A stretch of DNA of 64,000 nucleotides from Alphaproteobacteria bacterium (GTDB lineage Bacteria > Pseudomonadota > Alphaproteobacteria > Rhodobacterales > Rhodobacteraceae), in contig JAUHVK010000023.1 of the NCBI GenBank assembly GCA_030425145.1, positions 1 through 64,000 on the forward strand, read 5' to 3'. This document shows positions 5,509-36,266 of this stretch, one piece after another (position 1 is the first letter of the stretch; each line of letters opens with the position of its first letter). The notes under the pieces are model-generated. The model did no database searches. It worked only from the letters and a program-made list of their open reading frames with translations, and was not told the origin of the DNA. Position numbers and translations under genes: made by a program.

Positions 5509-5592
5509 GAGAGGGAAAGGAGTGTTGGTTTGAGGGTGACGGGAAGTGAGACCGGGAGAGTGGCTTCCGACGCCCGTCGTGGAGAAGATCTG
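5509..5592 (+). promoter_or_regulatory. Structured 5' leader (copy A) before parB-like gene
   Basis: Purine-rich leader beginning GAGAGGGAAAGGAGTG. GACGGG (5538-5543) can pair with CCCGTC (5573-5578), enclosing a hairpin GGGAG-AGTGG-CTTCC (5554-5568). The same layout is found before 25965 and 27806, with compensatory G-U change in the outer stem, so this looks like a conserved RNA element. GGAG at 5581 provides the ribosome site. Confidence 0.6.
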
Positions 5593-7749
5593 ATGACGAA
5601 AGCTGTCCAGAAAATCACCCTGTCCCCTTCGCGGGATATCCCTTTCGACAAGCTGGTGCTGAGCCAGTCCAATGTGCGGCGCATCAAGGCTGGCGTTTCC
5701 GTCGAGGAACTGGCCGAAGACATCGCCCGCCGCGGTCTGTTGCAGAGCCTGAGCGTGCGGCCCGTGTTGGCTGACGATGGGACCGAGACCGGCAAGTTCG
5801 AGATCCCGGCCGGTGGCCGCCGGTTTCAAGCATTGTCCCTGCTGGTGAAGCAGAAGCGTTTAGTGAAGACCACGCCCATTCCCTGCATAGTGCGGGATGC
5901 AGCGTCCGAGATCCTGGCCGAGGACGATTCCTTGGCCGAGAACATGCAGCGCGTCGCCCTGCACCCGCTCGATCAGTTCCGCGCGTTTGTGTCCCTGCGT
6001 GACAAGGGCCAGAGCGACGCAGAGATTGCTGCAGCCTTCTTCGTGACGCCGCAGATCGTGAAGCAGCGCCTGAAACTCGCTTCCGTCGCCCCTGCCCTGC
6101 TTGAGATCTATGCCGAGGATGGCATGACGCTGGAGCAGCTCATGGCCTTCACCGTGAACCCCGATCACGCGCGTCAGGTTCAGGTCTGGGATGTGATCCA
6201 TTCATCCTGGAACAAGGAGCCATTCCAGATCCGACGCATGCTGACGGAGACCTCGGTCAGGGTGTCCGACCGGCGTGCGGTCTTTGTGGGTGTTGAGGCC
6301 TATGAAGCGGCGGGCGGCACGATGCTGCATGACCTCTTTCAGGGCGATGACGGCGGTTGGCTCGAGGACCCTGCCCTGCTCGATCAGCTGGTGACGGAAA
6401 AACTCCAGGCCCAGGCTAAGACGGTTGCGGTTGAGGGTTGGAAGTGGATCGAGGTCGCACTCGACCTGCCCTACGGCTACAGCCACGGCCTGCGGTCCTT
6501 GTCCGGTGATCCCGCACCGATGACGGATGACGAAGGCGCCGCTCATGCCAAGCTGCTCGCCGAGTATCGGGCGTTGGAAGAGGAATACGCTGGTCAGGAT
6601 GACATCCCCGACGAGATCGACACGCGGCTTGGCGTGTTGGAAACGGAGATGGAAAAGATTGAAACCCGACCATTGATCTTCGATCAGGCAGAAATCGGGC
6701 GGGCAGGGGCATTCGTCACGCTCGACCGCTACGGCGCGCTGGCAGTCTATCGTGGGTATGTGCGTCCAGAGGATGAGTCCGTTGAGGAGACCGCGGTCCA
6801 GGACGGTACTGATCCTGCGGTCGCGGGGCAGGGGGATGATCGTAATCTCACTGATGGCCATGGCAGTGCCGCTCACGGCGGAACCATCATCATGTCGGAT
6901 GGCCATCCGATCGGAGCTGACCTGCCGGAGGATGAGGATGACGGAGCGCTGAAGCCGCTGCCCGAGCGGCTGGTCATGGAGTTGACGGCCCACCGGACGT
7001 TAGCACTGCGTGAAGCGATCGGGCGCTCGCCCGACGTGGCGTTGACGCTGCTGCTGCTGAAGCTGGTGACGGACACCTTCCGCACCTCCTCTGCTTCGGG
7101 CAGCTGTCTCGAAGCCTCAGTGCGTCAGGTCTATATGTCGGCGCAGGCGCTCGATCTGAAGGACAGCGTGGTGGCAAAGCTGGTCGACGAGCGTCACGCG
7201 GAATGGGAAGCCGATCTGCCGCTTGGCGATGATGCGGCACTCTGGGACTATCTGACGATCCTCGACCAGGGCAGTCGGCTGGCCCTGCTGGCGCATTGCC
7301 TCAGCTTCGGCGTCAACGCGCTGCATGAGAAGGTGAACCCTTACGGGGCAGGCATCTCTGCAGGGGGTCTGACCCGGCGTATGGCGCATGCCGATCTCGT
7401 GGCGCGCGCGACAGGTCTCGATATGGTCGAGGCGGGATGGGAGCCGACGGTCGACACCTATCTCAACCGCGTGCCCAAGGCCCGGATCCTCGAGGCCGTG
7501 CGGGAGGCGAAAGGGGAGGGGACTGCCCAACTCCTCGATCACCTTAAGAAAGGCGAGATGGCCAGTGAGGCCGAGCGCTTGCTGAAGGGCAGCGGCTGGT
7601 TGCCCGAGGTCCTTCGCCGGAACGATCTCGCGGCGCTGAACGGTGAGGGCCATGCCGAAGCGGCGGACAGCGTCAGTGAAGCTGACCTTCCTGCATTCCT
7701 GACGGATGACTTGCCTGCTGAAAGCGCGTCGATGCTGGCCGCGGAATAA
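5593..7749 (+). CDS. Large orphan ParB/RepB/Spo0J-like protein
   Basis: A 718-residue protein with an N-terminal ParB-like domain: DIPFDKLVLSQSNVRRIK, VEELAEDIARRGLLQSLSVR, the GGRRF box and LAEDDSLAENMQRVALHPLDQF (about residues 14-125), then a KorB-type HTH region (PQIVKQRLKLASVAP). The long C-terminal part is acidic in the middle (about 395-460) and then helical, without a family I recognise. Such oversized ParB-like proteins without a ParA partner are common on alphaproteobacterial plasmids; a role as DNA-binding or nuclease-like maintenance factor is inferred. The start is ATG 5593 behind GGAG, not ATG 5476, because 5476 would translate the centromere palindrome and the conserved leader. 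Confidence 0.85.
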   Translation: MTKAVQKITLSPSRDIPFDKLVLSQSNVRRIKAGVSVEELAEDIARRGLLQSLSVRPVLADDGTETGKFEIPAGGRRFQALSLLVKQKRLVKTTPIPCIVRDAASEILAEDDSLAENMQRVALHPLDQFRAFVSLRDKGQSDAEIAAAFFVTPQIVKQRLKLASVAPALLEIYAEDGMTLEQLMAFTVNPDHARQVQVWDVIHSSWNKEPFQIRRMLTETSVRVSDRRAVFVGVEAYEAAGGTMLHDLFQGDDGGWLEDPALLDQLVTEKLQAQAKTVAVEGWKWIEVALDLPYGYSHGLRSLSGDPAPMTDDEGAAHAKLLAEYRALEEEYAGQDDIPDEIDTRLGVLETEMEKIETRPLIFDQAEIGRAGAFVTLDRYGALAVYRGYVRPEDESVEETAVQDGTDPAVAGQGDDRNLTDGHGSAAHGGTIIMSDGHPIGADLPEDEDDGALKPLPERLVMELTAHRTLALREAIGRSPDVALTLLLLKLVTDTFRTSSASGSCLEASVRQVYMSAQALDLKDSVVAKLVDERHAEWEADLPLGDDAALWDYLTILDQGSRLALLAHCLSFGVNALHEKVNPYGAGISAGGLTRRMAHADLVARATGLDMVEAGWEPTVDTYLNRVPKARILEAVREAKGEGTAQLLDHLKKGEMASEAERLLKGSGWLPEVLRRNDLAALNGEGHAEAADSVSEADLPAFLTDDLPAESASMLAAE

Positions 7750-7761
7750 CGTGTTCCAGCA

Positions 7762-7782
7762 GGGGGCGGAGATTCCGCCCCC
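7762..7782 (+). terminator. GC hairpin after parB-like gene
   Basis: GGGGGCGGA, a 3-nt loop GAT, then TCCGCCCCC: a perfect 9-bp stem 12 bp after the stop. No T run follows, so it may be a processing or weak termination hairpin. Confidence 0.55.
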
Positions 7783-7848
7783 AATCACCCTATAGTGTAA
7801 CAATATCAATAAGATGAGTGCGATTACTCGCATTCGGAATGAGGAATC

Positions 7849-8322
7849 ATGTCTGCAACAACCATCATCGACACAGCCCCCCTCGGGGCGCTCATTCGCT
7901 ACACTGACGGCAGCCCCAAGCCACCGGCACGCTTCACCAAGAAACTGGCGGCCTGGGAGCGCTCGAACGGCGTCGGCCGCCTCGTGAAAAAGGAACCACC
8001 CCGGCCTTACGCGACCTGGACGGCTCCCGCGTCGTTCACGCTGCATGAGGGCAATTTCTCCTCGGAGGGGGTGATCCTCGTCACCATCATGCGCAGCCAT
8101 TCGGCTGACAGCGCCCTGGTCTTCGAGGTGACCGAGCAGCCGAAGCCCGGGCAGGTGCGCGTGCTTCTCGACTTCGGCGGCAACACCGAGCTGCTGCATT
8201 TGGCGGAATCTGTCACTGCGGCCGAGCTTTGGATCGCCAAGGAAGGATACCGCAATGCGCGACTTGAAATCGTCGGCGATGAAGAGGGCGAAAGGGCAGG
8301 GGGCGCGGACCTGGCCGCCTGA
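7849..8322 (+). CDS. Conserved-looking hypothetical protein, 157 aa
   Basis: I do not recognise a domain. The protein starts MSATTIIDTAPLGALIRYTDG, has a basic, proline-containing N-terminal third, a beta-rich middle (SFTLHEGNFSSEGVILVTIM) and an acidic end. There is no signal peptide or membrane segment. It follows the ParB-like gene by 99 bp, in the same direction, and is followed by a hairpin, so it is probably a separate short transcription unit (AATGAGGA lies just before the ATG). Codon use looks like that of its neighbours. Confidence 0.7.
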   Translation: MSATTIIDTAPLGALIRYTDGSPKPPARFTKKLAAWERSNGVGRLVKKEPPRPYATWTAPASFTLHEGNFSSEGVILVTIMRSHSADSALVFEVTEQPKPGQVRVLLDFGGNTELLHLAESVTAAELWIAKEGYRNARLEIVGDEEGERAGGADLAA

Positions 8323-8340
8323 GCCCAACTGAAACCGAGG

Positions 8341-8360
8341 GGCCCGCCCAAGCGCGGGCC
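8341..8360 (+). terminator. GC hairpin terminator-like
   Basis: GGCCCGC (8341-8347) pairs with GCGGGCC (8354-8360) around a 6-nt loop, 18 bp after the stop of the 157-residue gene. Only a short TCTC follows. Confidence 0.5.
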
Positions 8361-8708
8361 TCTCAACCATCACAACCTTGTCCTTTCAGTTCGCGGGGCA
8401 CCAAAGGATCCATCCCCAAAGAAGAAGTCTTCAACCAAGAGCGTGGCCGGGAGGCTGGCGGCGTTCCAAGCATCAGCGGGACAACCGGCTCCTGACGTTG
8501 GGGGACCATCCCCCGCTCGCCATTCCCTTCCTTGGCCCGAATCCCGGGCTCAAAATCAACCCGCGAGGGGTCGGACTACGGGCAAGCCCGTGCCGCCGGA
8601 TGGATTCGGGCAAGCCGAACGCACCCGGTGATGTCAGCCAGTATTCGGGCCTGCGGGGTCCTGTCGCGCGGGGGATGGTCCCCCGCCTCCAAGACAGGAG
8701 CCAAACAG
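8361..8708. other. Gene-poor stretch with short hairpins
   Basis: 348 bp without a convincing gene. Reading frames on both strands here are arginine/proline-rich shadows. Two related hairpin-like strings occur (GGGGGACCATCCCCCG near 8501 and GGGGGATGGTCCCCCG near 8673), which may form a long-range structure in the leader of the small gene at 8709. Confidence 0.4.
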
Positions 8709-8873: not shown

Positions 8874-9053
8874 GGCTTCGGCCTCACTTCCCGAGGGCTT
8901 GGCGCAAAAGCGGCTATCGCCGATAGAGGGCCTGCTCTACAGAACAGTCCCAAGTTCATAAAAAATATAAGAAAATAGCTCTCCTATAAGAAAGCTTTCC
9001 TACGTTTCTGCGATTTTCTTCAAACGATGACGTCGCCGGTGATGCGTCAGACT

Positions 9054-11077: not shown

Positions 11078-11121
11078 GGTCGTACCCGTCCTTTCCTGAT
11101 GTCCCTCCATGATCCGTCTGG

Positions 11122-11139: not shown

Positions 11140-11153
11140 TTGTGGGTCGAGCC

Positions 11154-13966: not shown

Positions 13967-16177
13967 ATGATCCGTACACTCCATCGCTGGCCGGGTCTTC
14001 TGGCACTCGCGCTCGTCACGATCCTGAGCCTGAGCGGCGCGGCGCTCTCGGTCTTTCCTGCGGCCGAGCGCATCGCCGCGCCGCAGGTGGAGACTGGCCA
14101 GACAGTCGCCACCCTCGCGGACCGCATCCAGGCCGTCTATCCGGGCGTCGAGCAGATCCGGCGGTCGCCCTCCGGTCGGATCACCGCCTATTGGTTCGAT
14201 CAGGGCGCGCCGGGTGCTGCCGTGATCGACCCGGCGACGGGCGAGGGCGTTGCCTCGGCCGACCCGAACCAGGCCCTTCGCTGGCTCACCAACTTTCATC
14301 GCTCGCTCTTCCTCGGGGATGGCGGGCGCATCGCCATGGCCGCCGGGGCCGCAGCAATGCTGGTCCTCTCGCTCTCGGGTGCTGTGCTGGTCGTGCGACG
14401 GGCGGGCGGATGGCGGCACTGGTTCGCGCCCTTGCGCGGTCCGCTCGCGGGCAGGCTGCATGTCGAGATCGCCCGGATTGCCGTCATCGGCCTCGTTCTG
14501 TCCTCCACCACCGCCCTCTGGATGACGGCCTCGACCTTCGATCTTCTGCCGGACGGTGGCGTCCTGCCGGCCGATCCCGCCGAAGTGAGCGGAGAGATTG
14601 GGTTCGCTCTCGATCAGATGGCCACGCTGCTGCAGACGCCCGTCGCCGAGCTGCGCGAGCTGAGCTTTCCCTATCCCGGCGATGCGACGGACGTGTTCAC
14701 ACTGAAGACCGACCGGGGCACCGGCTATCTCGACCAGGGAACCGGCGCGCTCGTGGCATGGGCCGACCTGACCGGGTGGGAGCGCGTCTCGGAAACTATT
14801 TACATGCTGCACACGGGGCAGGGGGCCGCGACGCTCGGCCTTGTGCTCGGGATGATGGCGCTCGGAGTGCCGGCGATGGGCGTGACCGGCGTCCTGATCT
14901 GGCTTGCCGGGCGGCGCGGGCGGCCGCGCATCCGGGGCAACCAGCCCGCGGGCCGTGCCGAGACGATCATTCTTGTCGGCAGCGAGGGTGGCAGCACCTG
15001 GGGCTTCGCCGGGACCCTGCATGCCGCGCTGACGGCAGCGGGGCAGGGCGTCCATGTTGGCCCGATGTCGGGCTTCGCACCAGAGCGCTACGCCCGTGCA
15101 GAGCGCATCATCGTTCTCGCCGCGACTTATGGCGATGGTGCGGCGCCCGCCTCGGCCAAGGGGTTCCTCGACCGGATGAACGCGTCGGCCCCTGCGCCTG
15201 ATATCCCGATGGCCCTGCTCGGCTTCGGCGACCGCAGCTTTCCGGCCTATTGCGCCTTCGCCAAGGCCGTTGCGGCAGCGGCGCAGGCGAAGGGCTGGGC
15301 CGAACTCATGCCGCTGGACACGATCGACCGCCAATCGCCACAGGATTTCGCGCGCTGGGGCCGCGCGCTTGGCGAGATGCTTGGCATCTCTCTCGAGCTT
15401 TCTCACCAGCCCGTTTCGCCGCGCACCGAAACATTGACCCTCGTCTCGCGGCGCAACTACGGGGCCGAAATGCAGGCGGGGGCCGCGATCCTGCGCTTCG
15501 ACCTACCGCGCGCGACGCTGTGGCAGCGGCTGACCGGCGCGGGCTTCGCACGGTTCCAGGCGGGCGACCTGATCGGCGTCCTGCCGCAGGGCAGCCCGGT
15601 GCCGCGCCTCTATTCGCTGGCCTCGGGCCGGCGCGACGGGTTCGTCGAGATCGTGGTGCGCAAGCATCCGGGCGGTCTGGCCTCGGGTCAGCTGACCGCC
15701 TTGGAGCCGGGCGATACGGTCACGGCCTTCCTGCGCCGCAATCCCGGCTTTCACGCCGACCGCGGTCGCACCCCGCTGATCCTGATCGGGGCGGGCACCG
15801 GCATCGGGCCGCTGGCGGGCTTCATCCGCGGCAATGCGCGGCACAGGCCCGTGCACCTGTTTTTCGGGATGCGGCATGCGGACAGCGATTTCTTCTATGG
15901 CGAAGAGATGCCCGGCTGGCAGGCTGAGGGGCGGTTGACCCGGCTTGTCACCGCCGTCTCGCGCGGCGCGCGACGCAGTTATGTGCAGGACGCCCTGCGC
16001 GCCGACGCGGCGCAGGTGGCCCGACTGATCCGCGACGGGGCGCGTGTGATGGTCTGCGGCGGGCGCGACATGGCCACGGGCGTGAGCGATGCGTTGGCCG
16101 AGATCCTCGCACCTGCCGGGCTTACGCCCGCAGTCCTGAAGACGGAGGGGCGGTATGTTGCGCGTTCCAGAGGATGA
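13967..16177 (+). CDS. PepSY-TM / flavodoxin / FNR fusion reductase, C-terminus altered by IS
   Basis: A 736-residue fusion. The N-terminal PepSY-associated membrane part has helices near residues 1-25 (MIRTLHRWPGLLALALVTIL), 122-145, 165-190 and 285-310. A flavodoxin-like domain begins about residue 330 (ETIILVGSEGG) and a CysJ-like FAD/NADPH domain from about 490 (PRLYSLASGRRDG; GAGTGIGPLAGFIRGN). It would carry electrons from NADPH via FAD and FMN to the membrane. The IS21 element enters codon 732: the frame now ends RYVARSRG. Removing the element and one target copy restores RYVEDIY followed by a stop, the aromatic terminus typical of CysJ-like reductases. The loss of that Tyr may change nucleotide handling. 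Confidence 0.85.
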   Translation: MIRTLHRWPGLLALALVTILSLSGAALSVFPAAERIAAPQVETGQTVATLADRIQAVYPGVEQIRRSPSGRITAYWFDQGAPGAAVIDPATGEGVASADPNQALRWLTNFHRSLFLGDGGRIAMAAGAAAMLVLSLSGAVLVVRRAGGWRHWFAPLRGPLAGRLHVEIARIAVIGLVLSSTTALWMTASTFDLLPDGGVLPADPAEVSGEIGFALDQMATLLQTPVAELRELSFPYPGDATDVFTLKTDRGTGYLDQGTGALVAWADLTGWERVSETIYMLHTGQGAATLGLVLGMMALGVPAMGVTGVLIWLAGRRGRPRIRGNQPAGRAETIILVGSEGGSTWGFAGTLHAALTAAGQGVHVGPMSGFAPERYARAERIIVLAATYGDGAAPASAKGFLDRMNASAPAPDIPMALLGFGDRSFPAYCAFAKAVAAAAQAKGWAELMPLDTIDRQSPQDFARWGRALGEMLGISLELSHQPVSPRTETLTLVSRRNYGAEMQAGAAILRFDLPRATLWQRLTGAGFARFQAGDLIGVLPQGSPVPRLYSLASGRRDGFVEIVVRKHPGGLASGQLTALEPGDTVTAFLRRNPGFHADRGRTPLILIGAGTGIGPLAGFIRGNARHRPVHLFFGMRHADSDFFYGEEMPGWQAEGRLTRLVTAVSRGARRSYVQDALRADAAQVARLIRDGARVMVCGGRDMATGVSDALAEILAPAGLTPAVLKTEGRYVARSRG
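16153..16158 (+). repeat. IS21 target duplication, left copy (GTATGT)
   Basis: GTATGT directly before the left inverted repeat; identical to 18738-18743. The ATG within it was originally the apbE start codon, with GGAGGGG as its ribosome site. Confidence 0.85.
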
Positions 16178-25880: not shown

Positions 25881-25964
25881 GAGAGTGAGAGGAGTGCCGG
25901 TTTCCCGGTGACGGGTTGAAGGCTGGGAGAGTGGCTTCCAGCGCCTGTCACGGAGGAATAGCCA
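25881..25964 (+). promoter_or_regulatory. Structured 5' leader (copy B) before DUF932 gene
   Basis: Starts GAGAGTGAGAGGAGTG, closely matching copy A. GACGGG (25910-25915) pairs with CCTGTC (25944-25949) using one G-U pair where copy A has G-C, and encloses the identical hairpin GGGAG-AGTGG-CTTCC (25925-25939). GGAGG lies before the start codon. Confidence 0.65.
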
Positions 25965-27164
25965 ATGGGCATTGTGGAAGTTTTGGACCCTGTGCAGCCC
26001 GCACGGACGGGTGGCTACAAGGTGGATGTGAGCCGGGGTGAGCGGAACGGGCGGGTGTCGTCCGAATGGTTCAACCGGCCCGATGACGAGCGGTATCTGT
26101 CGCTCGACGATCTTTGGGCTTCGGTGAAGGGCCGTTCCGAGCGCAGCCGCAGCCGGGTGGTGCAGACCGCCGATATCCGGGTCGAGGCTGCTCGGGACAC
26201 CGCCGACCGGCTGCATCTTGTGCTGCCGAAGGCGCAGGAACCGGTGGCCCCGACCCACTGGGCCTTTAGTCAACTCGCGAGTCTCGTCGGCGCGCCGGCC
26301 TCTTACCTGCGGCAGCTGCCCGCGCCGTTGGCGGGGATCAACCTGCAATACGGTCTGACCAATCACCGCGCCGAACAGGTCAAGACCTTCGAGACCGAGG
26401 ATGGCCGCACGGAACTGCGTGCTGTCACTGGCCCCGACTATGGCCGCATCCATGATCACGAGTTGGTTGAAGCGGTGCAGCGGATTGCAGGCAATGGCAC
26501 GGGCGATACGCGCTGGAAGGTGCCGGGAGTGCTCGACTGGTCGACCGGGGTCTACAACCCCGATGTCGAAATCAGCCGCGACACAACCACGCTTTATGCC
26601 TCGGATCGCGATGTCTTCCTGTTCCTGGTGGATGATCGCAACCCGATCGAGGCGGGCAAGCTGCCTGACGGCTCTCCTGATCTCTACTTTCGGGGCTTCT
26701 ACTGCTGGAACTCCGAGGTGGGCGCAAAAACCCTCGGCATGGCGAGTTTCTACCTGCGGGCAGTGTGCCAGAACCGCAACCTCTGGGGCGTCGAGGATTT
26801 TCAGGAGATCCGGATCCGCCACTCGAAATACGCGGCCTCGCGCTTTGCCCATGAGGCGGCCCCGGCGCTGACGCGGTTCGCCAATTCCTCGCCGCAGGGC
26901 TTCCTGAACGGCATCAAGGCCGCGCGGCAGCAGATCGTGGCACGGACCGACGAGGATCGCGCGGATTTCCTCCGCAAGCGCGGCTTCTCAAAAGCCGAGT
27001 CTGGCAAGATCATCGAGAAGGTACTGATGGAAGAGGGCCGCCCGCCCGAGAGCATCTTCGACTTCGTGCAGGGCATCACGCGGCTGGCGCGCGACAAGAC
27101 CCAGCAGGATGCACGGCTCGACATGGAGGGGCGCGCCAAGAAGCTCCTCGACCGGGTGGGGTGA
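25965..27164 (+). CDS. DUF932 plasmid/phage-like protein
   Basis: A 399-residue DUF932-family protein. Recognisable parts: THWAFSQLASLVGAPASYLRQLP, LRAVTGPDYGRIHDHELVEAV, TLYASDRDVFLFLVDD, FYCWNSEVGAKTLGMASFYLRAVCQN and FAHEAAPALTRFANSSPQGFLNG. DUF932 genes are standard on plasmids and phages near ssb and other DNA-maintenance genes; the biochemical role is not established. No membrane segment. It is preceded by the conserved leader and followed by its own terminator, so it is a single-gene unit. Confidence 0.88.
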   Translation: MGIVEVLDPVQPARTGGYKVDVSRGERNGRVSSEWFNRPDDERYLSLDDLWASVKGRSERSRSRVVQTADIRVEAARDTADRLHLVLPKAQEPVAPTHWAFSQLASLVGAPASYLRQLPAPLAGINLQYGLTNHRAEQVKTFETEDGRTELRAVTGPDYGRIHDHELVEAVQRIAGNGTGDTRWKVPGVLDWSTGVYNPDVEISRDTTTLYASDRDVFLFLVDDRNPIEAGKLPDGSPDLYFRGFYCWNSEVGAKTLGMASFYLRAVCQNRNLWGVEDFQEIRIRHSKYAASRFAHEAAPALTRFANSSPQGFLNGIKAARQQIVARTDEDRADFLRKRGFSKAESGKIIEKVLMEEGRPPESIFDFVQGITRLARDKTQQDARLDMEGRAKKLLDRVG

Positions 27165-27594: not shown

Positions 27595-27729
27595 GCTGTA
27601 TTGCTTTCTTCTTCCTGATGCCGCCGAGGCGACTATAGCTTAGAAACAAAACCAACTTTGGAAGTTCTGCGCCGAACGGCGGAAAAGTTCGCTTTGCCGA
27701 CATAAGTTTTCATCATCCGCTGCCCCTTC

Positions 27730-27805
27730 GAGGAAGAGGGCGGGGGTTTGGTCTTTGACGGATGAGGCGGGGAGAGAAGCTTCCCGCGCCGTTGGAGATA
27801 TTGCC
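27730..27805 (+). promoter_or_regulatory. Structured 5' leader (copy C) before 27806 gene
   Basis: Starts GAGGAAGAGGGCGGGGGTTT. GACGG (27757-27761) pairs with CCGTT (27789-27793), enclosing GCGGGGAG-AGAAG-CTTCCCGC (27767-27787). The stem is longer and the loop differs from copies A and B, but the order of elements and the GCGCC/GGAG ending are kept. Confidence 0.55.
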
Positions 27806-28324
27806 ATGTTTGACCTTCCCCTGCCTATCCAGCCGAGCCCGCGTCCGATGTGCCCTGTTCCAAATGGCGGGACTGTCGCTCCTGATACCAGCCTGCCTTT
27901 CGCGCTGACGCGGATGCACCGGACGCCGGCAGCCTTGATGTCGGGCACCGCTGCTCCCGTGTTGGTTGAGCGTTTTGCGACCTTGGCCGATGCTATGCAG
28001 GGGGCGTTTGAGCAGGCAGAGGACAACGGCTCCGATGCAGCGCCGCAGCTTCTGGCCATCCTTGATTGCGACCAGCGCCTGGTTCTTGCCGGGGCCGCCA
28101 GTCATGGCGCTGTGGCTTGGTGCCAGCCTGTCGCCAATGCTCTTGAGGCGCGGGCCGTCGTGACCGAGGCGGTTCAGCTGCGCGCCCAAGCTGGCCGCGC
28201 CATTGATTGGCACGAGCCTGAACTGGCGCAGCGACTGCGTTACCGTGCCGATCTGCTGGATGCGCGTCTGGTCGACCCGCTCTGGCGCGCCTTTGCCGCT
28301 CGCGCGCTGCAGATCGCGGCGTGA
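27806..28324 (+). CDS. Hypothetical protein, 172 aa
   Basis: I do not recognise a named family. The protein starts MFDLPLPIQPSPRPMCPVPNGG, with a Pro-rich first 30 residues, then an alpha-helical Ala-rich body (VLVERFATLADAMQGAFEQAE, LLAILDCDQRLVLAG). No signal peptide or membrane helix. The ATG at 27806 is chosen because the upstream part of the open frame is the conserved leader, and GGAG lies 11 bp before. It sits between other plasmid-maintenance genes with the same type of leader, so a shared regulation is likely. Confidence 0.7.
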   Translation: MFDLPLPIQPSPRPMCPVPNGGTVAPDTSLPFALTRMHRTPAALMSGTAAPVLVERFATLADAMQGAFEQAEDNGSDAAPQLLAILDCDQRLVLAGAASHGAVAWCQPVANALEARAVVTEAVQLRAQAGRAIDWHEPELAQRLRYRADLLDARLVDPLWRAFAARALQIAA

Positions 28325-28329: not shown

Positions 28330-28427
28330 AAGAGACAGAGGAGGGCTGGGAAGGGTTTGAGCCTTCGGGGGGCAGAGGAGTGCGCCACCCGGGGGGTCTG
28401 ACCTGTCCTCACCGAACGGAGATATCC
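28330..28427 (+). promoter_or_regulatory. Purine-rich leader (possible copy D)
   Basis: Starts GAGACAGAGGAGGGCTGGG and carries GGGGGGCAGAGGAG; it resembles copies A-C in the opening purine block and position, but I could not draw the same two-stem fold. GGAG lies 10 bp before the ATG. Confidence 0.35.
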
Positions 28428-28919
28428 ATGACCCAGACTGAACCCACTCTGGCCGCACCGCTGCGGCCTTCCACCGTCGATTTCGGGGCGATCCTTGCCG
28501 CGCATGCCGAACGCACCGCCCGGACCCTCGCCCTGCGCCCGGGCAACAAGGACCGCCTGTACGATGGCCTCATGGCCGCCAGCATCACCCATGTCACCGT
28601 GACCTTCGACGGGGCCGGCGACAGCGGCCAGATCGAAAGTATCGGCGCCTGGGCGGGCGAGACGGCTGTCGACTTCCCCGCGACTGAAATCCCCTATGCC
28701 GCGCTGACGTGGGATGATCCCGAGGTCGAGATGCGCAGCCTATCACTGGAGGATGTTGTCGAGCAGCTCACCTACGACTTCCTGTCTGACACACATGGCG
28801 GTTGGGAAAACAACGACGGCGCCTGGGGCGAATTCTGCTTCGACGCCGCGGCCCGCTGCATCCACCTCGAGTTCAACGAACGGTTCACGTCGTCCGAACT
28901 CTTCACCCATGATTTCTGA
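28428..28919 (+). CDS. DUF6878-like protein
   Basis: A 163-residue protein. ASITHVTVTFDGAGDSGQIESI, then DFLSDTHGGWENNDGAWGEFCFDAAARCIHLEFNERF and ELFTHDF recall the plasmid-borne DUF6878 family; I am fairly but not fully sure of the number. Acidic, soluble, without signal. Start ATG 28428 behind GGAG. The next gene (DUF6915-like) follows after 10 bp, so the two are co-transcribed. Confidence 0.7.
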   Translation: MTQTEPTLAAPLRPSTVDFGAILAAHAERTARTLALRPGNKDRLYDGLMAASITHVTVTFDGAGDSGQIESIGAWAGETAVDFPATEIPYAALTWDDPEVEMRSLSLEDVVEQLTYDFLSDTHGGWENNDGAWGEFCFDAAARCIHLEFNERFTSSELFTHDF

Positions 28920-29204: not shown

Positions 29205-31250
29205 TTATTCCAATGTTTCCCCAAGATCGGAGAGAAGCCCTTCGATCCTGCGGGCAATTGCGCAATGACGCTCGACTTCGCGAGGCCAGGATCTGACACG
29301 GGCATCGTCCGCAAGCGACAACTCGAGCCGGTGGCGTTCACGCAACCGCGGCCCGTAGCTTGGTGTCGTCACAAACCGCGAACAGTTGAGGTAAAGGTCG
29401 CATTCACAGGGACCTTCCGACGGGAGTCGCAGGCAATGACCAAGCTCCAATTCTGTTTTCAAGAAGTTGGTGCGCAGCCAATCAATTGCATCACTTCCGA
29501 GGTCGCCACTGCGGATTGCCTCAGCTCCTGCGCCAGCAATCAGCGCGCCCGGCTCCAGAACCGACCGATAGTCTCGCAGGACTTCGGCATCGCTGATCCG
29601 GCAGTAGATCATCGACATCCGGGGGCTTTCATGACCGAGCACACTCATGATCGTGTGCAGCTTCGCGCCACGTTCTGCCAGCTCGGTCCCGAGGGTGTGC
29701 CGGAACCGATGCATCGTGATGGTGCGCCGACCATTGGAGTCCACCAGTCCGGCGGCGTTGCAAAGGTGCTTCAGCGGGTTCTCGAAAAGATGGCGAACGC
29801 TCATCAGCTTCCCGTGCCTGACAAACACGAACCGGACCAGTTCACCGGTGCGTTCATCGGGAAGATCCCGATCCGCCACGTCCGCGCGAATGGCAAGAAC
29901 AGCGTTCAGAGCATCCGCCGCTTCTTCGTGCAAAGGAACAAGTCGCTCTCGTGCGGTCTTTCCGACAGGCAAGCGAAGGCGTGCCGTTCCATCTGGGTAG
30001 GTGTCCAGGCAGTCCGTCGTCAGGCGCTGGATCTCGCTTCGCCGCGCGCCGGACCAGCGGGCCACAAGGAAAGCGGCGCGTTGGAACGGGTCGTCGAGCA
30101 ACCGAACAACAACCATAAGCCGCTCAAGGTCAGCACGCGGAATATACCGTGGGATGCACTCCGGTACGCGTGGCAAGTCCCGCTTCGCCACCAGCGGCCA
30201 GCGCGGTATGCCCGGCCAGGCCCAGTCCTCAGCATCCTTGAAAAACTGTGCAAGCCGAATGACCCTCTCGCGCTGCGATCGCGTGGTCAAGGGTCGTCCC
30301 GTCTTGGGAGACAGCTCGGTCGCCATCGAATCCATCCAGCTCACGATATGATCGTGCTTTACAGCCGCGAATGTCTGAACCTCGGGTGCGACGGAACCGA
30401 GGTGCTGGAGGAAGCGGCGGGCGGTCAAGGCGTGGTGATATACTGTGGCCGGCCGCAAGGCCGGTGCCCTTCGTTGCAGCCACAAGTCGATAACAGCTAC
30501 CATCTCGGGTTGTGATGCCGGGACCGCGTAAGACGGCATGATCTTGCGGGGAACCTCATGCGCCTGTCCGCGATGATACAGCACCAGCCGAAGCTGGCTG
30601 ACCATCGTGATCCAGCTTTTGGAAACGACGCCGTATCGTTCGACTGATCCCCAGTAGTCAGCAAGATCTGAACGCTCCCCGAACTTACGGATTGCACTGA
30701 GCAAGCCGTCAACGTCGGCGTCACCGAGTTGATCGGCCGAACGCTTCCCGTGGTGCATGGCCAGCCTGCCCAGTGTCCACCGCATCGCGCTGTCGGAGGT
30801 AGTCAGGCGCAGACCCAACGCTGCCCCCTCGCGCGCCAGCATCTCGACGCCCAGATCGATCCTCATGTGCCGTACGACATCATGGATGCACAGATCGCCG
30901 ACTGCGAGCAGCCAGTCATAGTCGATCCGAAGATGTCCGCTCAGCGCTAGATAGTAGAGATAGGTGCGCGCCCAATAGGAGGGTGGGTTGAGAAGAGACC
31001 TGCGGGTATGTCCGTCGATCCGACCCACGCGCTTTGCCAGCGGCGCATGCAGCCATTCCTCGAGGTTCGGCCAAGCGTCTACGAACAACTTACGGTGGCT
31101 TCGACGCTGCTGGACGAAGCCCTTGCCATTGCCGCAGCCTGCAAGAAACGCATCGTACTCATCGGCTGAGCAATGGCGACTGTGGAAAGTCTGGTCCTCA
31201 ACGACCACGCGCGCCTGCATGGCAGCGGCCGATACCGGTCCGCGCCTCAT
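29205..31250 (-). CDS. tnpB: TnpB-like tyrosine recombinase (Tn554 family)
   Basis: A 681-residue recombinase. A long N-terminal region leads into a SAM-like core (about 270-370), then the catalytic domain with RWSGARRSEIQRL (first Arg), HRFRHTLGTELAERG (H-x-x-R), LGHESPRMSMIYCRI (second His and nucleophile Tyr) and a C-terminal Cys/basic segment CECDLYLNCSRFVTTP that is typical of Tn554 TnpB. The start ATG 31250 overlaps the tnpA stop (ATGA). Intact. Confidence 0.88.
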   Translation of the reverse strand: MRRGPVSAAAMQARVVVEDQTFHSRHCSADEYDAFLAGCGNGKGFVQQRRSHRKLFVDAWPNLEEWLHAPLAKRVGRIDGHTRRSLLNPPSYWARTYLYYLALSGHLRIDYDWLLAVGDLCIHDVVRHMRIDLGVEMLAREGAALGLRLTTSDSAMRWTLGRLAMHHGKRSADQLGDADVDGLLSAIRKFGERSDLADYWGSVERYGVVSKSWITMVSQLRLVLYHRGQAHEVPRKIMPSYAVPASQPEMVAVIDLWLQRRAPALRPATVYHHALTARRFLQHLGSVAPEVQTFAAVKHDHIVSWMDSMATELSPKTGRPLTTRSQRERVIRLAQFFKDAEDWAWPGIPRWPLVAKRDLPRVPECIPRYIPRADLERLMVVVRLLDDPFQRAAFLVARWSGARRSEIQRLTTDCLDTYPDGTARLRLPVGKTARERLVPLHEEAADALNAVLAIRADVADRDLPDERTGELVRFVFVRHGKLMSVRHLFENPLKHLCNAAGLVDSNGRRTITMHRFRHTLGTELAERGAKLHTIMSVLGHESPRMSMIYCRISDAEVLRDYRSVLEPGALIAGAGAEAIRSGDLGSDAIDWLRTNFLKTELELGHCLRLPSEGPCECDLYLNCSRFVTTPSYGPRLRERHRLELSLADDARVRSWPREVERHCAIARRIEGLLSDLGETLE

Positions 31251-32392
31251 TTGAGGTCTCCGTTGTCGGTGTCAGCTGCCGGATCATCAAAGCCAAGGGC
31301 ATGCCTATACTCGGCGACCACGATGGAATCTGAAACGCGCGTGTATATGCGCGTGGCCTCTGGCGAGGCATGGCCGAGGCGCTTTTGCAGGGTAAGTTCG
31401 CGCATCCCGCCTTCCCACATGCGGGTTGCGTGGGTGTGGCGAAGGGCGTGTGGTGTGACCCATGGCGCGCGGATCTGAGCGCGGGAACAAGCTCTCGCGA
31501 AGAGCTTGGCCAATGCCGAATACGACAACGCGACGTGCCTTCGCGGGCCATGGCCACCGACCAGGAACAAGATTGGCGTGTCGGTGTCCTGAGGCCGCTC
31601 ATGCATTACATAGGCACTGACCGATTCCAGAGTTGCGGCCTCGTGAAGATCGACCACGCGCTCGATCCTCGATTTGCTGCGCGCACCGCGAGGGTGGTCG
31701 AAACGAACACGGATCGTCACCCGTCGCTTTCCGTAGGCAATATCAGTGAGGTGAAGGCCGAGCACTTCGCCGGGACGCAACCCACCATCGAGCATCAAGC
31801 GAACGATGGCGAGATCGCGTCGGCATCGCAGCTGCGAGACAAGTGCATCGACCTGATCGTCGGCCATCGGGCGTGGCAGCCGATGCACTTGCCTCAACCG
31901 CACCGGACTCCGGGTTGGCGGCGACGAGATGACGCCGGCCAGGAATGGACGATGGCGCTCTGCGACGTGCATGGCCGCCCGATCGTGGACCCGCGTTATA
32001 GGGTTGGTGCCACCGAACCGCTCGGTAATCGTGGCCCATTCGAAAAATGAAGATACAGCCGCCAAGATCCGGTTGATCGTCGAAACGCTCAGACGGGCCG
32101 AAGCTGGTTCGCCATCTACGGTGGTGGGTGAGGGACGGCGCGCGAGACCACGTCGACGACTTGGCTTCTGTCGGAGGTGGATCAGCAGATCAACTGCGCG
32201 CGCAGGCGTCAGCGCCGTCCAGTCCAATGAATGCTCAACAAGGAAGGAACGAAGATGAGTAAGATCATGCCCATAGGCACGCGCCGTGTTCGGGGAGCAG
32301 CCCGACGCATCAAGATAGGCCACAAACCTTGCACGGGCTTCATCGAAACTGACCATAGATTTATTGTTGGCTACCGCAAAACTGTCTCCCAT
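31247..32392 (-). CDS. tnpA: TnpA-like tyrosine recombinase (Tn554 family)
   Basis: A 381-residue recombinase. The core-binding domain FDEARARFVAYLDASGCSPNTARAYGHDL is followed by catalytic motifs LDGGLRPGEVLGL, TPHALRHTHATRMWEGG, KRLGHASPEATRIYTRVS. Start ATG 32392 is chosen because AGGAG precedes it by 7 nt; the longer open frame would run out of the element into the split host gene. First gene of the tnpA-tnpB unit. Confidence 0.88.
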   Translation of the reverse strand: MGDSFAVANNKSMVSFDEARARFVAYLDASGCSPNTARAYGHDLTHLRSFLVEHSLDWTALTPARAVDLLIHLRQKPSRRRGLARRPSPTTVDGEPASARLSVSTINRILAAVSSFFEWATITERFGGTNPITRVHDRAAMHVAERHRPFLAGVISSPPTRSPVRLRQVHRLPRPMADDQVDALVSQLRCRRDLAIVRLMLDGGLRPGEVLGLHLTDIAYGKRRVTIRVRFDHPRGARSKSRIERVVDLHEAATLESVSAYVMHERPQDTDTPILFLVGGHGPRRHVALSYSALAKLFARACSRAQIRAPWVTPHALRHTHATRMWEGGMRELTLQKRLGHASPEATRIYTRVSDSIVVAEYRHALGFDDPAADTDNGDLK

Positions 32393-32469
32393 GGTCGATC
32401 TCCTATCGACTCGTATCCCGCCGCAATCATACGCCGAAAGCTCTGCCAGACACAGTTTGTCTATATAAA

Positions 32470-32473
32470 GGCC
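32470..32473 (+). repeat. Shared GGCC core, right junction
   Basis: GGCC matching the left junction; the interrupted gene continues immediately after it. Confidence 0.5.
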
Positions 32474-32689
32474 GAGACGATCTTCGGCCAGACCCTCACG
32501 CTCTCGACCGGGCGCATCATCCCGACCCGCTGGGTCGGCGAACAGCACGTGAAGGAAGACCTCGGCTTTATCCCGAGTTTCGCCGACTGGGTGAAGGCCA
32601 TCCGGCCCGAACCCTGGATGGGCCGGTCCGGGCGGATCGAGGCGCTGGTCGATCCGCATCTCGCCTCGCCCGTGGTCGAGGTCAGTTGA
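32474..32689 (+). pseudogene. DUF6915-like gene, 3' part (71 codons)
   Basis: Reads ETIFGQTLTLSTGRIIPTRWVGEQHVKEDLG and FADWVKAIRPEPWMGR, the conserved C-terminal half of the DUF6915-like protein whose N-terminal half is at 28930. The stop is at 32687-32689, followed after 1 bp by the next gene's ATG. No ribosome site of its own. Confidence 0.8.
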
Positions 32690-32690
32690 C

Positions 32691-32888
32691 ATGACTGATC
32701 CCGCATACTTGCGCCTCGGTCTGCCGCCGACGGCATCGCCCCAGACAGTTCTGCGCGCGGCGGTCCGGGCGCTGCACCCCGATACGCGCGCCGTGCGCAG
32801 CTTCCGGACGGCGCGCAAGCGCTTCTACCGGCAGATGCTCTGCGCGCATGCCGCGCGGCAGGCATCGGGCGACAATCCGACCGGCTGA
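32691..32888 (+). CDS. Small basic hypothetical protein, 65 aa
   Basis: MTDPAYLRLGLPPTASPQTV, then AVRALHPDTRAVRSFRTARKRFYRQMLC. The LHPDTR motif and helical layout recall the start of a J-domain, but the protein is too short and I do not call it DnaJ. Basic (many Arg), likely nucleic-acid or protein binding. The start is 1 bp after the DUF6915 stop, so it depended on that gene's transcript and probably on translational coupling, both now disturbed by the insertion. Confidence 0.6.
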   Translation: MTDPAYLRLGLPPTASPQTVLRAAVRALHPDTRAVRSFRTARKRFYRQMLCAHAARQASGDNPTG

Positions 32889-32964
32889 TCGCTTCCAACC
32901 AACCCTTCATCCCAATCCAGCGCCCGGCCCCAAGGCCCGGGTTTCTCAATCTCAGGAGGTCCCC

Positions 32965-33384: not shown

Positions 33385-34021
33385 GGTGATCTGCACAACA
33401 GTCTACCAGTTCCCTGAACTCTCCGACGTCGCCAAGGAAAAGGCGCGCAGCTGGTATCGTGAGCTTGGGCCCCATGATGATTTGTGGGACGCGGTCTACA
33501 AGGATTTCGAGAGGATCTGCGAGATCCTCGGAATCCGCCTGAAGACCACGCCCGTGCGCCTGATGGGCGGCGGGACTCGGGCCAAGCCCTGCATCTGGTT
33601 CTCAGGGTTCTGGAGCCAGTGCGACGGGGCTTGCTTCGAAGGTTACTGGTCCCACTCCAAGGGCGCGGCCGCGCGCATCCGGGACTACGCCCCGACGGAC
33701 GCGACGCTGCATGGCATAGCCGACTGGCTGCAGGCCATCCAGCGGCGGAATTTCTACCAGCTCGCTGCCGAGGTCAGCCACCGCGGCCGCTACTACCACG
33801 AATACACCATGTCCGTGGACGTCACGCGGGACAGCCCGACCTGGCAGCCGCCGACCGAAGACGCCGAGGAGATCGTGACCGAGGCGCTGCGTGATCTGGC
33901 CCGCTGGCTCTACCGCCAGCTTCAGGCTGAATACGACCACCTGACCTCGGACGAGGCTATAGAGGAGGGGATCATCGTCAACGAGTACACCTTCACCGAA
34001 GAAGGGCGCCGGTTCGGGTGA
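33377..34021 (+). CDS. Hypothetical protein, 214 aa
   Basis: MPEVICTTVYQFPELSDVAKEKARSW opens an alpha/beta protein with many Trp/Tyr (CIWFSGFWSQCDGACFEGYWSHSKG; YYHEYTMSVDVTRD) and a helical acidic C-terminal part. No signal or membrane helix. Homologues are sometimes labelled 'antitoxin of toxin-antitoxin stability system', a label I would not rely on. Coupled to the upstream 139-residue gene, which may be its partner. Confidence 0.75.
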   Translation: MPEVICTTVYQFPELSDVAKEKARSWYRELGPHDDLWDAVYKDFERICEILGIRLKTTPVRLMGGGTRAKPCIWFSGFWSQCDGACFEGYWSHSKGAAARIRDYAPTDATLHGIADWLQAIQRRNFYQLAAEVSHRGRYYHEYTMSVDVTRDSPTWQPPTEDAEEIVTEALRDLARWLYRQLQAEYDHLTSDEAIEEGIIVNEYTFTEEGRRFG

Positions 34022-34039
34022 GATCGCGGGCAGTTCATT

Positions 34040-34072
34040 TGATCTTTACAATGAGGCCATATGATCTATATT
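34040..34072 (+). promoter_or_regulatory. Promoter with tandem operator-like repeats (TA unit)
   Basis: TTTACA (34045-34050), 16 bp, TATATT (34067-34072) gives a good sigma-70-type promoter 20 bp before the antitoxin start. TGATCTTTA (34040-34048) and TGATCTATA (34062-34070) are direct repeats 22 bp apart, two helical turns, overlapping both promoter elements; they are likely autorepressor sites. Confidence 0.55.
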
Positions 34073-34091
34073 CAGCCCAATGGAGGACGCC

Positions 34092-34481
34092 ATGTACGTC
34101 GCAGAGAAAATCCGAGAACCTGCACAGATCAACGCCGTCGCGTTGAAGGCCTATGCGCGCGTGGTCGATGCTTGGGGCCTTAACCTGAACGAAGCGGCTG
34201 GCCTTGCCGATATGACGGTGAGCACGTGGAAGCGTGCCAAGAAGCCGGATTTCGCGGGGGAACTGACCAAGGATCAACTGCTGCGGCTCAGTGCGGTGAT
34301 CGGCATCTACAAATCGCTCGAACTCTATTTCTCCGAGCCGCTCGCGCGAAGCTGGTTCACCCGGCCGAACACGGGGCCGCTCTTTGGGGGCAGCCGTCCG
34401 GTTGACACGGCGATCGACGGCGGCTTGCCGCAAATTCTCGCGGTTCGGACCTATCTGGATGCGCTGCGTGGTGGGGCATGA
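34092..34481 (+). CDS. Xre/MbcA/ParS-type antitoxin
   Basis: A 129-residue antitoxin for the adjacent RES toxin. The N-terminal half is a divergent Xre helix-turn-helix (WGLNLNEAAGLADMTVSTWKRAKKP, about 29-53), the C-terminal half the MbcA/ParS toxin-binding part (RLSAVIGIYKSLELYFSEPLARSWFTRPNTGPLFGG). Start ATG 34092 behind GGAGGACGCC; an ATG at 34080 is possible. It overlaps the toxin start by 4 bp (ATGA). Confidence 0.88.
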   Translation: MYVAEKIREPAQINAVALKAYARVVDAWGLNLNEAAGLADMTVSTWKRAKKPDFAGELTKDQLLRLSAVIGIYKSLELYFSEPLARSWFTRPNTGPLFGGSRPVDTAIDGGLPQILAVRTYLDALRGGA

Positions 34482-35179
34482 AGCAGACCGAGATTTCCGA
34501 TCGCGGTCTCGTTCGTCTTCTGCCCGCTACCTACCACAAGCCGCCATCCCTGCGCGGTCTCGTCGATACCGATGACGAGATGGAGATCCTCGCAGAGATC
34601 GAGGGCCTGACCAGCGGCCGCCTTCTGGCCGAACGTGGCCGCAATCCCCATCTGGACCCGCGCGAGCTTGCCTGGCAGCGGCGCAGCCGCGATCTGCGCA
34701 TTTACGGCGACAGTCATGTCAACGCCGCCTTCACCTATACCCGCGCCGGCGGGAACCGCTTCAACACCGAAGATCGTGGCGCCTGGTACTGCGCGTGGGA
34801 GGTGATGGTTTCTGTCAGCGAAGTGGCCTGGCACCGCACCCGTGAACTCGGCTTTACCGGCAGCTTCCATGACAGCGCTCGCTATGTGGAATTGTTGGCG
34901 GATTTCATCGGCGTCTTAGATGACATGACCGACGAGCCAGGCCATCCCGCACTGCATCCGGATCCGGCTGTCGGCTATCCCGAGGGCCAAAGCCTGGCCC
35001 AACATCTTCGCCGGGCTGGATCGCGGGGTCTGATCTACCCCTCGGTCCGGGCGCCTGCGCCGGGTGGGAATTGCTTGGTCTGCTTCGAGCCGCACGCGAT
35101 CCAGAACGTCCGACCGGGCGCATCCTGGGATCTTGTTTGGAATGGGACACCGCACTACTCGGTTACGGCTGTCGGCTGA
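34478..35179 (+). CDS. RES-domain toxin
   Basis: A 233-residue RES-family protein; characterised members destroy NAD+ by phosphorolysis or hydrolysis. The signature residues are RAGGNRFNTE (RES Arg), the WEVMVSVSEVAWHR helix with Glu, and RGLIYPSVRAPAPGGNCLVCF with the Ser of 'YPS'. This is somewhat longer than the shortest RES toxins. Directly coupled to the Xre-type antitoxin, so plasmid stabilisation or phage defence is the likely role. Confidence 0.88.
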   Translation: MKQTEISDRGLVRLLPATYHKPPSLRGLVDTDDEMEILAEIEGLTSGRLLAERGRNPHLDPRELAWQRRSRDLRIYGDSHVNAAFTYTRAGGNRFNTEDRGAWYCAWEVMVSVSEVAWHRTRELGFTGSFHDSARYVELLADFIGVLDDMTDEPGHPALHPDPAVGYPEGQSLAQHLRRAGSRGLIYPSVRAPAPGGNCLVCFEPHAIQNVRPGASWDLVWNGTPHYSVTAVG

Positions 35180-35216
35180 CGAGTTACAGCGCAAGCGCCC
35201 TTGGAGGTCCGAAGAA

Positions 35217-35393
35217 ATGAAACCGGCTAATGACAATAGCGCGGAGGTCACGCACTTGAAGCCATGTGACCATCAGGTGTTCTTTGAGGCTTTGGACTGT
35301 CTGCCCTCACCTCCGGACGCACTACGAGCAGCATTTCGCCGGACGAAAGAGAGGTCATTCCGGCAAAACACATGGCTTCCAAAGATGGACTGA
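35217..35393 (+). CDS. Small hypothetical protein, 58 aa
   Basis: MKPANDNSAEVTHLKPCDHQ, then FEALDCLPSPPDALRAAFRRTKERSFRQNTWLPKMD. Start ATG 35217 lies 10 bp behind GGAGG. It follows the RES toxin by 37 bp. Two Cys, basic end, no membrane helix. No family recognised. Confidence 0.55.
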   Translation: MKPANDNSAEVTHLKPCDHQVFFEALDCLPSPPDALRAAFRRTKERSFRQNTWLPKMD

Positions 35394-35792
35394 GTCCGCC
35401 GGTCTTCTGGGCTTCCCATAGACGCGCTGAGGGCGGCGACGCCTCTGCCCCAAGAGACCACTATAGTTGTCTTTGATCAGGATACTTTTCCAGCGTTATG
35501 GACGCTCCAATATTGAGATTTCCAAAGAACTGAGGGGCTAGCCCCAAGTGGTGGGAGATATGAAGACGCGGGTTTGAGAGACGGCGGCGACTTGCGGTGG
35601 TTGCCGAATCTCGATGCGATGTGCCTCCCGGCGCGCCGTCGGGACCAGACCTTGGTCCTTCGGACAGGAGTATGACCGAGGCTGATGTCCCGAAGGGCTA
35701 ATCTGCCAATCTATAGGTTGGCAACCACGCTCGGTTTGCCAAGCCACGGTATGGCAGAAGCTCTGGAAGGCCGGAGCCAGCCGGTGCCGTGC
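35394..35792. other. Gene-free stretch
   Basis: 399 bp without a supported gene; frames on both strands are short and of unusual composition. A hairpin-like GGGGCTAGCCCC occurs at 35533-35544. It separates the toxin-antitoxin unit from a minus-strand gene. Confidence 0.4.
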
Positions 35793-36089
35793 TCACTTGT
35801 TTCCGTCGATCCACTTCGACATCAGCCCCTTGTCGCGGAAGCATTCATCCGGAACGGCGCGCCGTTTGATCCGAGCAAGCTTCTCCGCGAAGGCCACCTG
35901 CTTCGACGTCGGCAACCGATCCATGTCGGAGACCGGCTTCAGCTGGGCCTGCGCCTCGATCCAAGCACTCAACGACCGGCGGTCCTGCTGAACCTCCCAA
36001 GGCAGGAGGGTCTGGTTGCGTAAGGCGAGTGACCGCGCATAGGCGATCTGCTTAGGGGTCGCGGGCAGCGCGTACGTTGTGCTTTCCAT
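35793..36089 (-). CDS. Hypothetical protein with internal duplication, 98 aa
   Basis: Contains the repeated motif ATPKQIAYARSLALR (about 10-24) and PTSKQVAFAEKLARIK (about 60-75), each followed by a W-containing helix (LSAWIEAQ, MSKWIDG). The duplicated TxKQxxxAxxLA helix is also found in plasmid primase/topoisomerase-type proteins, so a nucleic-acid role is plausible. Divergent from the strawberry-notch gene. Start ATG 36089, behind GGGAGTTTCCCC. Confidence 0.7.
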   Translation of the reverse strand: MESTTYALPATPKQIAYARSLALRNQTLLPWEVQQDRRSLSAWIEAQAQLKPVSDMDRLPTSKQVAFAEKLARIKRRAVPDECFRDKGLMSKWIDGNK

Positions 36090-36171
36090 GGGGAAACTCC
36101 CTTGCTTGCTTGATCACCAATATAGAACATAACAAGAACAAAATCAAGCCGAGCGACTTCCAAGCATCGGT

Positions 36172-36266
36172 TCGAGAGGAAGAGGGTGGCCGGGGAAGAT
36201 CAGGCCTGAGGGTGCCCGAGAGAGGGTGTCCGGGCCTGATCCTGTCCCTCATTCCGGAGTTTCCCG
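36172..36266 (+). promoter_or_regulatory. Purine-rich leader with long stem (possible copy E)
   Basis: Starts GAGAGGAAGAGGGTGGCCGGGG as a purine block like copies A-C. GATCAGGCC (36198-36206) pairs perfectly with GGCCTGATC (36233-36241) around GGGTGCCCGAGAGAGGGTGT. GGAG lies 12 bp before the start codon. The fold differs in detail from copies A-C. Confidence 0.45.

Follow-up and report, generated by a model that had tools for sequence, protein, structure and literature searches.

A candidate RNA leader family in front of unrelated establishment and anti-defense genes of alphaproteobacterial mobile DNA

What could make unrelated plasmid genes, one for a ParB-like protein, one for a DUF932 protein, and one for an orphan protein of 172 amino acids, begin behind the same kind of leader? 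The question is raised by a stretch of 64,000 nucleotides (positions 1 to 64,000 of contig JAUHVK010000023.1, assembly GCA_030425145.1, Rhodobacteraceae; hereafter the window), for which an original prediction had proposed three structured 5′ leaders of common design, two further purine-rich leaders as possible relatives, a common switch upon plasmid entry, and possible membership in the radC RNA class. For genes that shield plasmid DNA on arrival, discussion of control usually turns on promoters or on entry signals in single-stranded DNA; a covarying leader that recurs before unrelated genes of this sort in a whole class of bacteria suggests that they are controlled at the RNA level. One study discusses ArdC-N, ParB, RadC, and strawberry-notch domains among the proteins of invading elements (PMC5512222), and ardC of plasmid R388 is reported to have been needed in recipients and not in donors (PMC7213743). 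The leaders described here look like an uncatalogued shared control element of the anti-restriction and DNA-handling genes of mobile DNA.

All three leaders lie where they had been placed, and their outer stems, inner hairpins, GGAG, and ATG were all found. We refer to this architecture as type I:

5509 to 5584, forward strand: leader A (type I), before the ParB-like gene (718 amino acids); AGAG block 5509-5520, outer stem 5538-5543/5573-5578 (GACGGG/CCCGTC), inner hairpin GGGAGAGNNGCTTCC 5554-5568, Shine-Dalgarno sequence (SD) 5581-5584, ATG 5593.
25881 to 25955, forward strand: leader B (type I), before the DUF932 gene (399 amino acids); outer stem 25910-25915/25944-25949 (GACGGG/CCTGTC), inner hairpin GGGAGAGNNGCTTCC 25925-25939, SD 25952-25955, ATG 25965.
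27728 to 27797, forward strand: leader C (type I, with a shortened outer stem), before the orphan gene (172 amino acids); linker UCUUU 27752-27756, outer stem 27757-27761/27789-27793 (GACGG/CCGTT), inner hairpin GGGAGAGNNGCTTCC 27770-27784, end of GGAG 27797, ATG 27806.

The inner hairpin follows the pattern GGGAG-AGNNG-CTTCC in each copy, and GGAG is separated from ATG by 8 or 9 nucleotides. The 5′ block is AGAG-rich in A and B and has CGAG in C. Copy C had been described as having a lengthened inner stem; its stem is indeed 8 bp long, but this is not peculiar to C, as the inner stem of B has 8 bp too, and that of A contains a C·A mismatch. The 15-mer pattern GGGAGAGNNGCTTCC is commoner than expected by chance, with 46 matches (17 for the reversed pattern) in 198 family genomes and 6 (0 reversed) in the genome of the window itself; 7 of 30 retrieved loci were judged by eye to be chance matches. 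Compared with shuffled sequences, B and C fold with z scores of -3.25 and -2.20, respectively.

To find relatives, a covariance model (R1) was built from a seed of 14 leaders before ParB-like, DUF932, and ArdC genes, and a second model (R2) from 93 sequences. R1 scored 95.6 bits for A and 87.7 bits for B, both members of its seed, and 44.2 bits for C, though C lies outside the seed; the R2 scores were 79.6, 85.4, and 62.4 bits for A, B, and C. In searches of genomes of the family, class, and phylum, 12 to 24 first-look candidates were scored per genome under strict filters, so that the counts are lower bounds. At least 63 of the 198 family genomes matched R1 at an E value of ≤1, and at least 43 had a best E value of <1e-3, the window's own genome and the seed genomes being included in both counts. 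R2 matched at least 29 of 385 class genomes (E ≤ 0.001) and at least 27 of 299 genomes drawn from the phylum (E ≤ 0.01), two of the latter lying outside the class with 29 and 24 bits. A pattern scan of named genomes returned at least 119 stretches, 116 of which contained an R2 match (E ≤ 0.001). Among the 80 stretch titles listed, nearly all were of Alphaproteobacteria, as judged by organism name; those labeled otherwise were a gammaproteobacterial metagenome-assembled genome (L220) with two R2 matches, a metagenome-assembled genome labeled only Proteobacteria (L180), and a Streptomyces stretch (L222) that had no R2 match. In the plasmid database PLSDB, leader A together with the start of its gene matched 150 records, of which 72 were from Pseudosulfitobacter.

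None of the 4227 families of Rfam 15 reached its gathering score in the window or at 16 other leader-bearing loci, and permissive scans around the leaders gave only unrelated subthreshold matches. As judged from the models and their distribution, the leaders form a real RNA family that is spread through the Alphaproteobacteria and absent from Rfam 15. Some members are found on megabase-size contigs (for example, G188:C1 and G149:C1), where they may belong to integrated elements. A phage origin was considered and rejected, as leader B, the one leader tried, had no credible match in 50,697 phage records; one exact pattern gave a single hit among viral contigs (L165), a locus that holds three R2 matches. 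Four near-identical, degenerate leaders from four genomes (L119:1029-1103, L121:2384-2458, L122:2229-2303, and L123:1501-1575), scoring 34 to 39 bits with R1, have no matching gene behind them and are possibly a copy carried by a mobile element.

Is the structure itself under selection? In each of three alignments (A4, A5, and A6, with 115, 89, and 137 distinct rows), none of 500 shuffles reached the observed covariation score or percentage of paired cells; counting against the weight of this result, the rows had been aligned to the model structure, and shuffling leaves the relatedness of the sequences in. The slid controls keep that relatedness as well, yet they score far lower: in A6, 130 of whose 137 rows are absent from R2's own rows, 96.7% of cells were paired compared with at most 50.5% in slid controls. 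A4 holds a few weak matches (22 to 25 bits) with no convincing gene. Compensatory change is strongest in the inner stem, where one pair appears as CG, UG, GC, or UA, another as GC, GU, or AU, and a third as AU or GC. Covariation is strong, and the shared, selected RNA structure with compensatory change that the original prediction had called for is borne out, and its relatives, sought with the kind of model it had named, exist in genomes of both family and class. Outside the stems, two elements of the block (AGAG and AG) and one of the loop (AG[A/T]GG) hardly vary. The type I consensus consists of a 5′ AGAGNNAGAG block, a GACGGG/CCCGTC outer stem, an inner hairpin whose loop reads AGNGG, and GGAG 7 to 9 nucleotides before the start codon.

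The wobble pairs indicate which strand is folded. G-U cells outnumbered A-C cells by 165 to 14 in A4, with the six weakest matches dropped, and by 169 to 24 in A6; these counts omit the outermost pair of the inner stem (32 A-C of 109 cells in A4 and 22 more A-C in A6), a position that may not be a pair in all members. Because G-U lies far above A-C, these alignments indicate that the stems are selected in the sense strand and not in its complement.

The company that the leaders keep was followed in a set of 350 matches (121 from A4, 150 from A6, 66 from A7, and 13 further), which omits two matches cut at the end of their stretch (L230 and L243) and which, after 15 repeats were collapsed, left 335 distinct leaders. 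They precede ParB-like genes (135), DUF932 genes (75), genes for the 172/182-amino-acid orphan (45), ArdC genes (38), and RadC genes (5); 10 stand before other genes and 27 have no gene called. ParB-like here denotes one BLAST cluster minus the proteins with an ArdC motif, with Pfam run on group representatives. In the five main groups, 296 of 298 leaders end 7 to 9 nucleotides before the start codon, and all leaders share one strand in 95 of 97 multileader loci, the exceptions being L091 and L106. In the window, the genes behind leaders A, B, C, and E (the last described below) are as follows:

5593 to 7749, forward strand: ParB-like protein, 718 amino acids (Pfam ParB_N, E = 1e-6).
25965 to 27164, forward strand: DUF932 protein, 399 amino acids (Pfam DUF932, E = 2.6e-4, 21.3 bits, below the curated cutoff of 23).
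27806 to 28324, forward strand: orphan protein, 172 amino acids (no Pfam match up to E = 0.01).
36267 to 40628, forward strand: strawberry-notch type helicase, 1453 amino acids (Pfam AAA_34 and Helicase_C_4).

The constant gene company that had been expected is therefore seen, with ParB-like, DUF932, ArdC, RadC, and orphan genes behind type I leaders and the helicase gene behind leader E. Sequence identity could still have come from recent duplication of one upstream region. For 259 of 275 leaders, the nearest leader in another locus stood before the same kind of gene (shuffled labels gave a mean of 86 and a maximum of 115), and this held for 226 of 275 when close matches were barred. Moreover, 139 leaders were nearer to the leader of the same gene elsewhere than to the leader of another gene in their own locus, and only 1 showed the opposite. 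Since the leaders group by gene and not by plasmid, recent duplication is contradicted and we rejected it; the grouping indicates that the leader types are old and remain with their genes.

Several members of the set deserve mention for themselves. In L190:1270-4176, ArdC and ParB-like sequences are joined in a single 969-amino-acid open frame that runs through an intact type I leader (2296-2371), which would be translated as a linker; this may be a real fusion or an assembly error. At L291:1660-2037, the gene behind a leader encodes an AlpA-like regulator (Pfam Phage_AlpA); no other representative that was scanned is a regulator. The counterpart of the 172-amino-acid orphan behind a leader of a Tabrizicola piscis plasmid (L051:23843-24361) is annotated as DNA repair protein RadC. 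A G+C-rich, hairpin-like sequence of about the form CCCCTTCTGCGGGGAGACCCCGCAACGCCCCC adjoins the 5′ side of the AGAG block of ArdC leaders and some DUF932 leaders, in many of the members listed (for example, L235, L213, and L255). A perfect palindrome, CTTGACCGCGGTCAAG, lies at 5484-5499 of the window between the upstream gene and leader A, and traces of it (GTCAAGA) are found 5′ of several other ParB-like leaders.

The two purine-rich leaders put forward as further relatives proved to be such, with a different architecture, which we call type II:

28331 to 28421, forward strand: leader D (type II), before a gene for 163 amino acids (28428-28919); AGAGACAGAGG block, long stem, AGAGG in the apical loop, SD 28418-28421.
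36175 to 36259, forward strand: leader E (type II), before the strawberry-notch helicase gene (1453 amino acids); AGAGGAAGAGG block, 9-bp stem 36198-36206/36233-36241, apical GAGAGAGGG loop, SD 36256-36259.

A regular expression (AGAG-N2/3-RRAG, spacer, SD, and an open frame of at least 60 amino acids) run on the 80,879-base contig picked A, B, D, and E and two places judged to be chance; C fell outside its picks, as its block begins with CGAG. R2 gave 18.0 bits for D, through the 5′ block, and 12.6 bits for E, with 8.3 bits for the best chance-like match of the same search. As R2 barely detects them, D and E are treated as a second architecture, outside the type I model. Relatives of D sit before the same 163-amino-acid gene, and class-wide relatives of E sit before similar genes. 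Matches to E occurred in 21 and to D in 8 of the 198 family genomes (E ≤ 0.001), several of them short or weak and the queries containing some coding sequence; leader E with its gene start matched 116 PLSDB records, 73 of them from Pseudosulfitobacter. In an alignment of 20 type II leaders (5 of E's own kind and 15 others), there is almost no variation in the AGAGNNAGAG block or in an apical GAGAGAG loop; RNAalifold predicted 15 pairs, and for 6 of these at least one sequence has both partners replaced. Leader D has a fold z score of -2.25. From these alignments, D and E are a second architecture with the same 5′ AGAGNNAGAG block and an AGAG apical loop. Type II-like leaders at L099, L170, L192, and L199 precede an apparent, unnamed family of 140-amino-acid proteins, a further candidate for the set.

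How might such leaders act? In folding predictions for type I, the mean unpaired probability of the SD was 0.29 for ParB-like, 0.24 for DUF932, 0.16 for ArdC, and 0.25 for orphan leaders, compared with 0.52, 0.42, 0.44, and 0.40 in controls with shuffled linkers; it fell below the leader's own control mean in 90 of 121, 62 of 73, 31 of 35, and 27 of 42 cases. The SD was mostly paired in all 36 ArdC leaders, in 64 of 73 DUF932, 33 of 42 orphan, and 3 of 4 RadC leaders, and in 88 of the 100 ParB-like leaders outside copy A's group. Within the window, its unpaired probability is 0.02 in C, where GGAGA of the SD is the predicted partner of the linker UCUUU, and 0.28 in D. Four linker-to-SD pairs were 92.0% paired, compared with at most 60.7% when slid. 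A linker hairpin (P1) was rejected as a general feature, since only 17 of 137 rows, among them 12 ArdC rows, had all four of the pairs tested. In type II, more than half of the block is paired in 15 of 20 leaders, and in the folds inspected it pairs largely with a pyrimidine tract just 5′ of the SD.

These predictions make translational control by the leaders likely, with a closed default state, also likely, in most type I leaders and not in all. The linker between block and stem would extend the type I stem and pair with the SD, holding the leader closed. The recurrence of AGAG sites in both architectures hints at a single docking factor, and we infer that a shared trans-acting factor, whether a protein that binds RNA or a small RNA with CUCU, could dock on those sites of the block and the apical loop, shift the pairing of the SD, and so set these genes together, plausibly upon entry of the element into a new cell. 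That the leader family controls the translation of establishment and anti-defense genes of plasmids and integrative elements is our preferred reading, with a probability of about 0.65. Considerably more tentative is its extension to one trans-acting factor that reads AGAG in two architectures and switches on unrelated genes at element entry. Equally tentative is the scope of the regulon that this extension implies: the ArdC, ParB-like, RadC, DUF932, strawberry-notch helicase, and orphan genes, under a factor shared by the Alphaproteobacteria or carried by the element.

Several observations weigh against translational control by a closed leader. Leader A folds no better than shuffled sequences (z score of 0.46) and leader E only weakly better (-1.30). 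The unpaired probability of the SD is 0.74 in A, 0.50 in B, and 0.55 in E. Of the 28 Rhodobacteraceae-type ParB leaders (copy A's group, split off by a pattern chosen after A had been seen to be open), only 2 have a mostly paired SD. For the linker-to-SD pairs alone, 26 of 500 shuffles reached the covariation score, which is unconvincing. Among the 20 type II leaders, 19 have an SD that is half open or more, so that a closed default is not common to all. Finally, 276 upstream stretches revealed no common A+T-rich, promoter-like position upstream of the block. The accessible SDs of copy A, its relatives, and those 19 type II leaders, together with the purine-rich block, would suit a constitutive element for translation or mRNA stability, in which a 5′ purine standby site and a protective hairpin precede a strong SD and nothing is switched. 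A generic stabilizer would have no need of the specific AGNGG loop and the spaced AGAG block that have been kept, and in most type I leaders the SD is buried more deeply than in linker-shuffled controls; we regard this explanation as unlikely.

The repetition of AGAG sites in both architectures could also mean that the leaders are targets of a trans-acting antisense small RNA with CUCU and that no dedicated protein takes part. When the window was searched for such a partner, only one CCTCTNNCTCT site (14365-14375) turned up besides those in the complements of leaders B, D, and E. We hold the antisense reading to be improbable. The gene company is typical of element entry and the leaders share a strand in nearly all multileader loci, as might be expected if the incoming strand carried a structure or promoter of single-stranded DNA, of the Frpo kind, in place of an RNA. 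The asymmetry between G-U and A-C, which favors a fold of the sense (non-template) strand over its template complement, disfavors a structure in the transferred template strand, and an SD and start codon at fixed spacing likewise speak for RNA, leaving this explanation very improbable. An RNA thermometer of the ROSE or FourU kind would explain why the linker of C is predicted to pair with GGAGA; the lack of an Rfam match, the very stable G+C-rich stems, genes for DNA handling and not for heat shock, and an AGAG block that a thermometer leaves unexplained make it a highly unlikely one. Membership in the radC RNA family, raised in the original prediction and suggested by a similar gene company that includes RadC itself, did not survive comparison: radC (RF01754) had no match up to an E value of 10 at any of the five leaders, and its consensus and fold are different. 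In the genome of the window, the best radC match (19.6 bits, with a cutoff of 40) is on another contig, and none of 14 subthreshold matches listed (150 of 315 candidates scored) is on the contig of the window. We rejected it, and consider it barely conceivable.

Since 51680-55675 of the window encodes a MobA/VirD2-like relaxase and a coupling protein, the contig is probably part of a transferable plasmid. Two adjacent tyrosine recombinase genes (29205-32818, reverse strand) lie between the genes of D and E on the opposite strand.

A search of the literature, with most subscription papers beyond reach, found no description of the leader, which is not proof of absence. The leader offers a handle for finding its regulator and a sequence-only marker for establishment and anti-defense genes, including orphans such as those for the 172/182-, 163-, and 140-amino-acid proteins. 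If one factor does act on both architectures, these genes would constitute an RNA-level regulon of plasmid establishment.

Among known systems, radC RNA precedes genes for DNA-interacting proteins, and it resembles the present leaders in gene company only, with ParB-like, ArdC, and RadC genes downstream of the latter. It is listed as a proteobacterial candidate cis-regulatory leader (PMC2864571), and its consensus of 149 positions is unrelated to the leaders here in sequence and fold. STAXI (RF01728), whose Rfam model found no match in the window or at the 16 other loci, is described as tandem repeats of a pseudoknot, in which UUCG loops are frequent, and is listed for Enterobacteriales, whereas the leaders described here have two nested stems and an AGNGG loop and belong to Alphaproteobacteria. 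Riboswitches and thermometers of the ROSE and FourU type are translational switches that bury the SD. The leaders resemble them in the pairing of linker and GGAG that folding predicts for most type I members. They differ in their conserved AGAG sites, in the open copy A, and in lacking both a match in Rfam and any known ligand domain. Single-stranded DNA promoters of the Frpo type lie in conjugative leading regions and are proposed to allow early expression of establishment genes. The leaders share this proposed role; they differ in that selection acts on a fold of the sense strand and in that an SD and a start codon follow at a constant distance. With structured cis-regulatory leaders in general they share a covarying structure at a fixed distance before the start codons of a set of genes.

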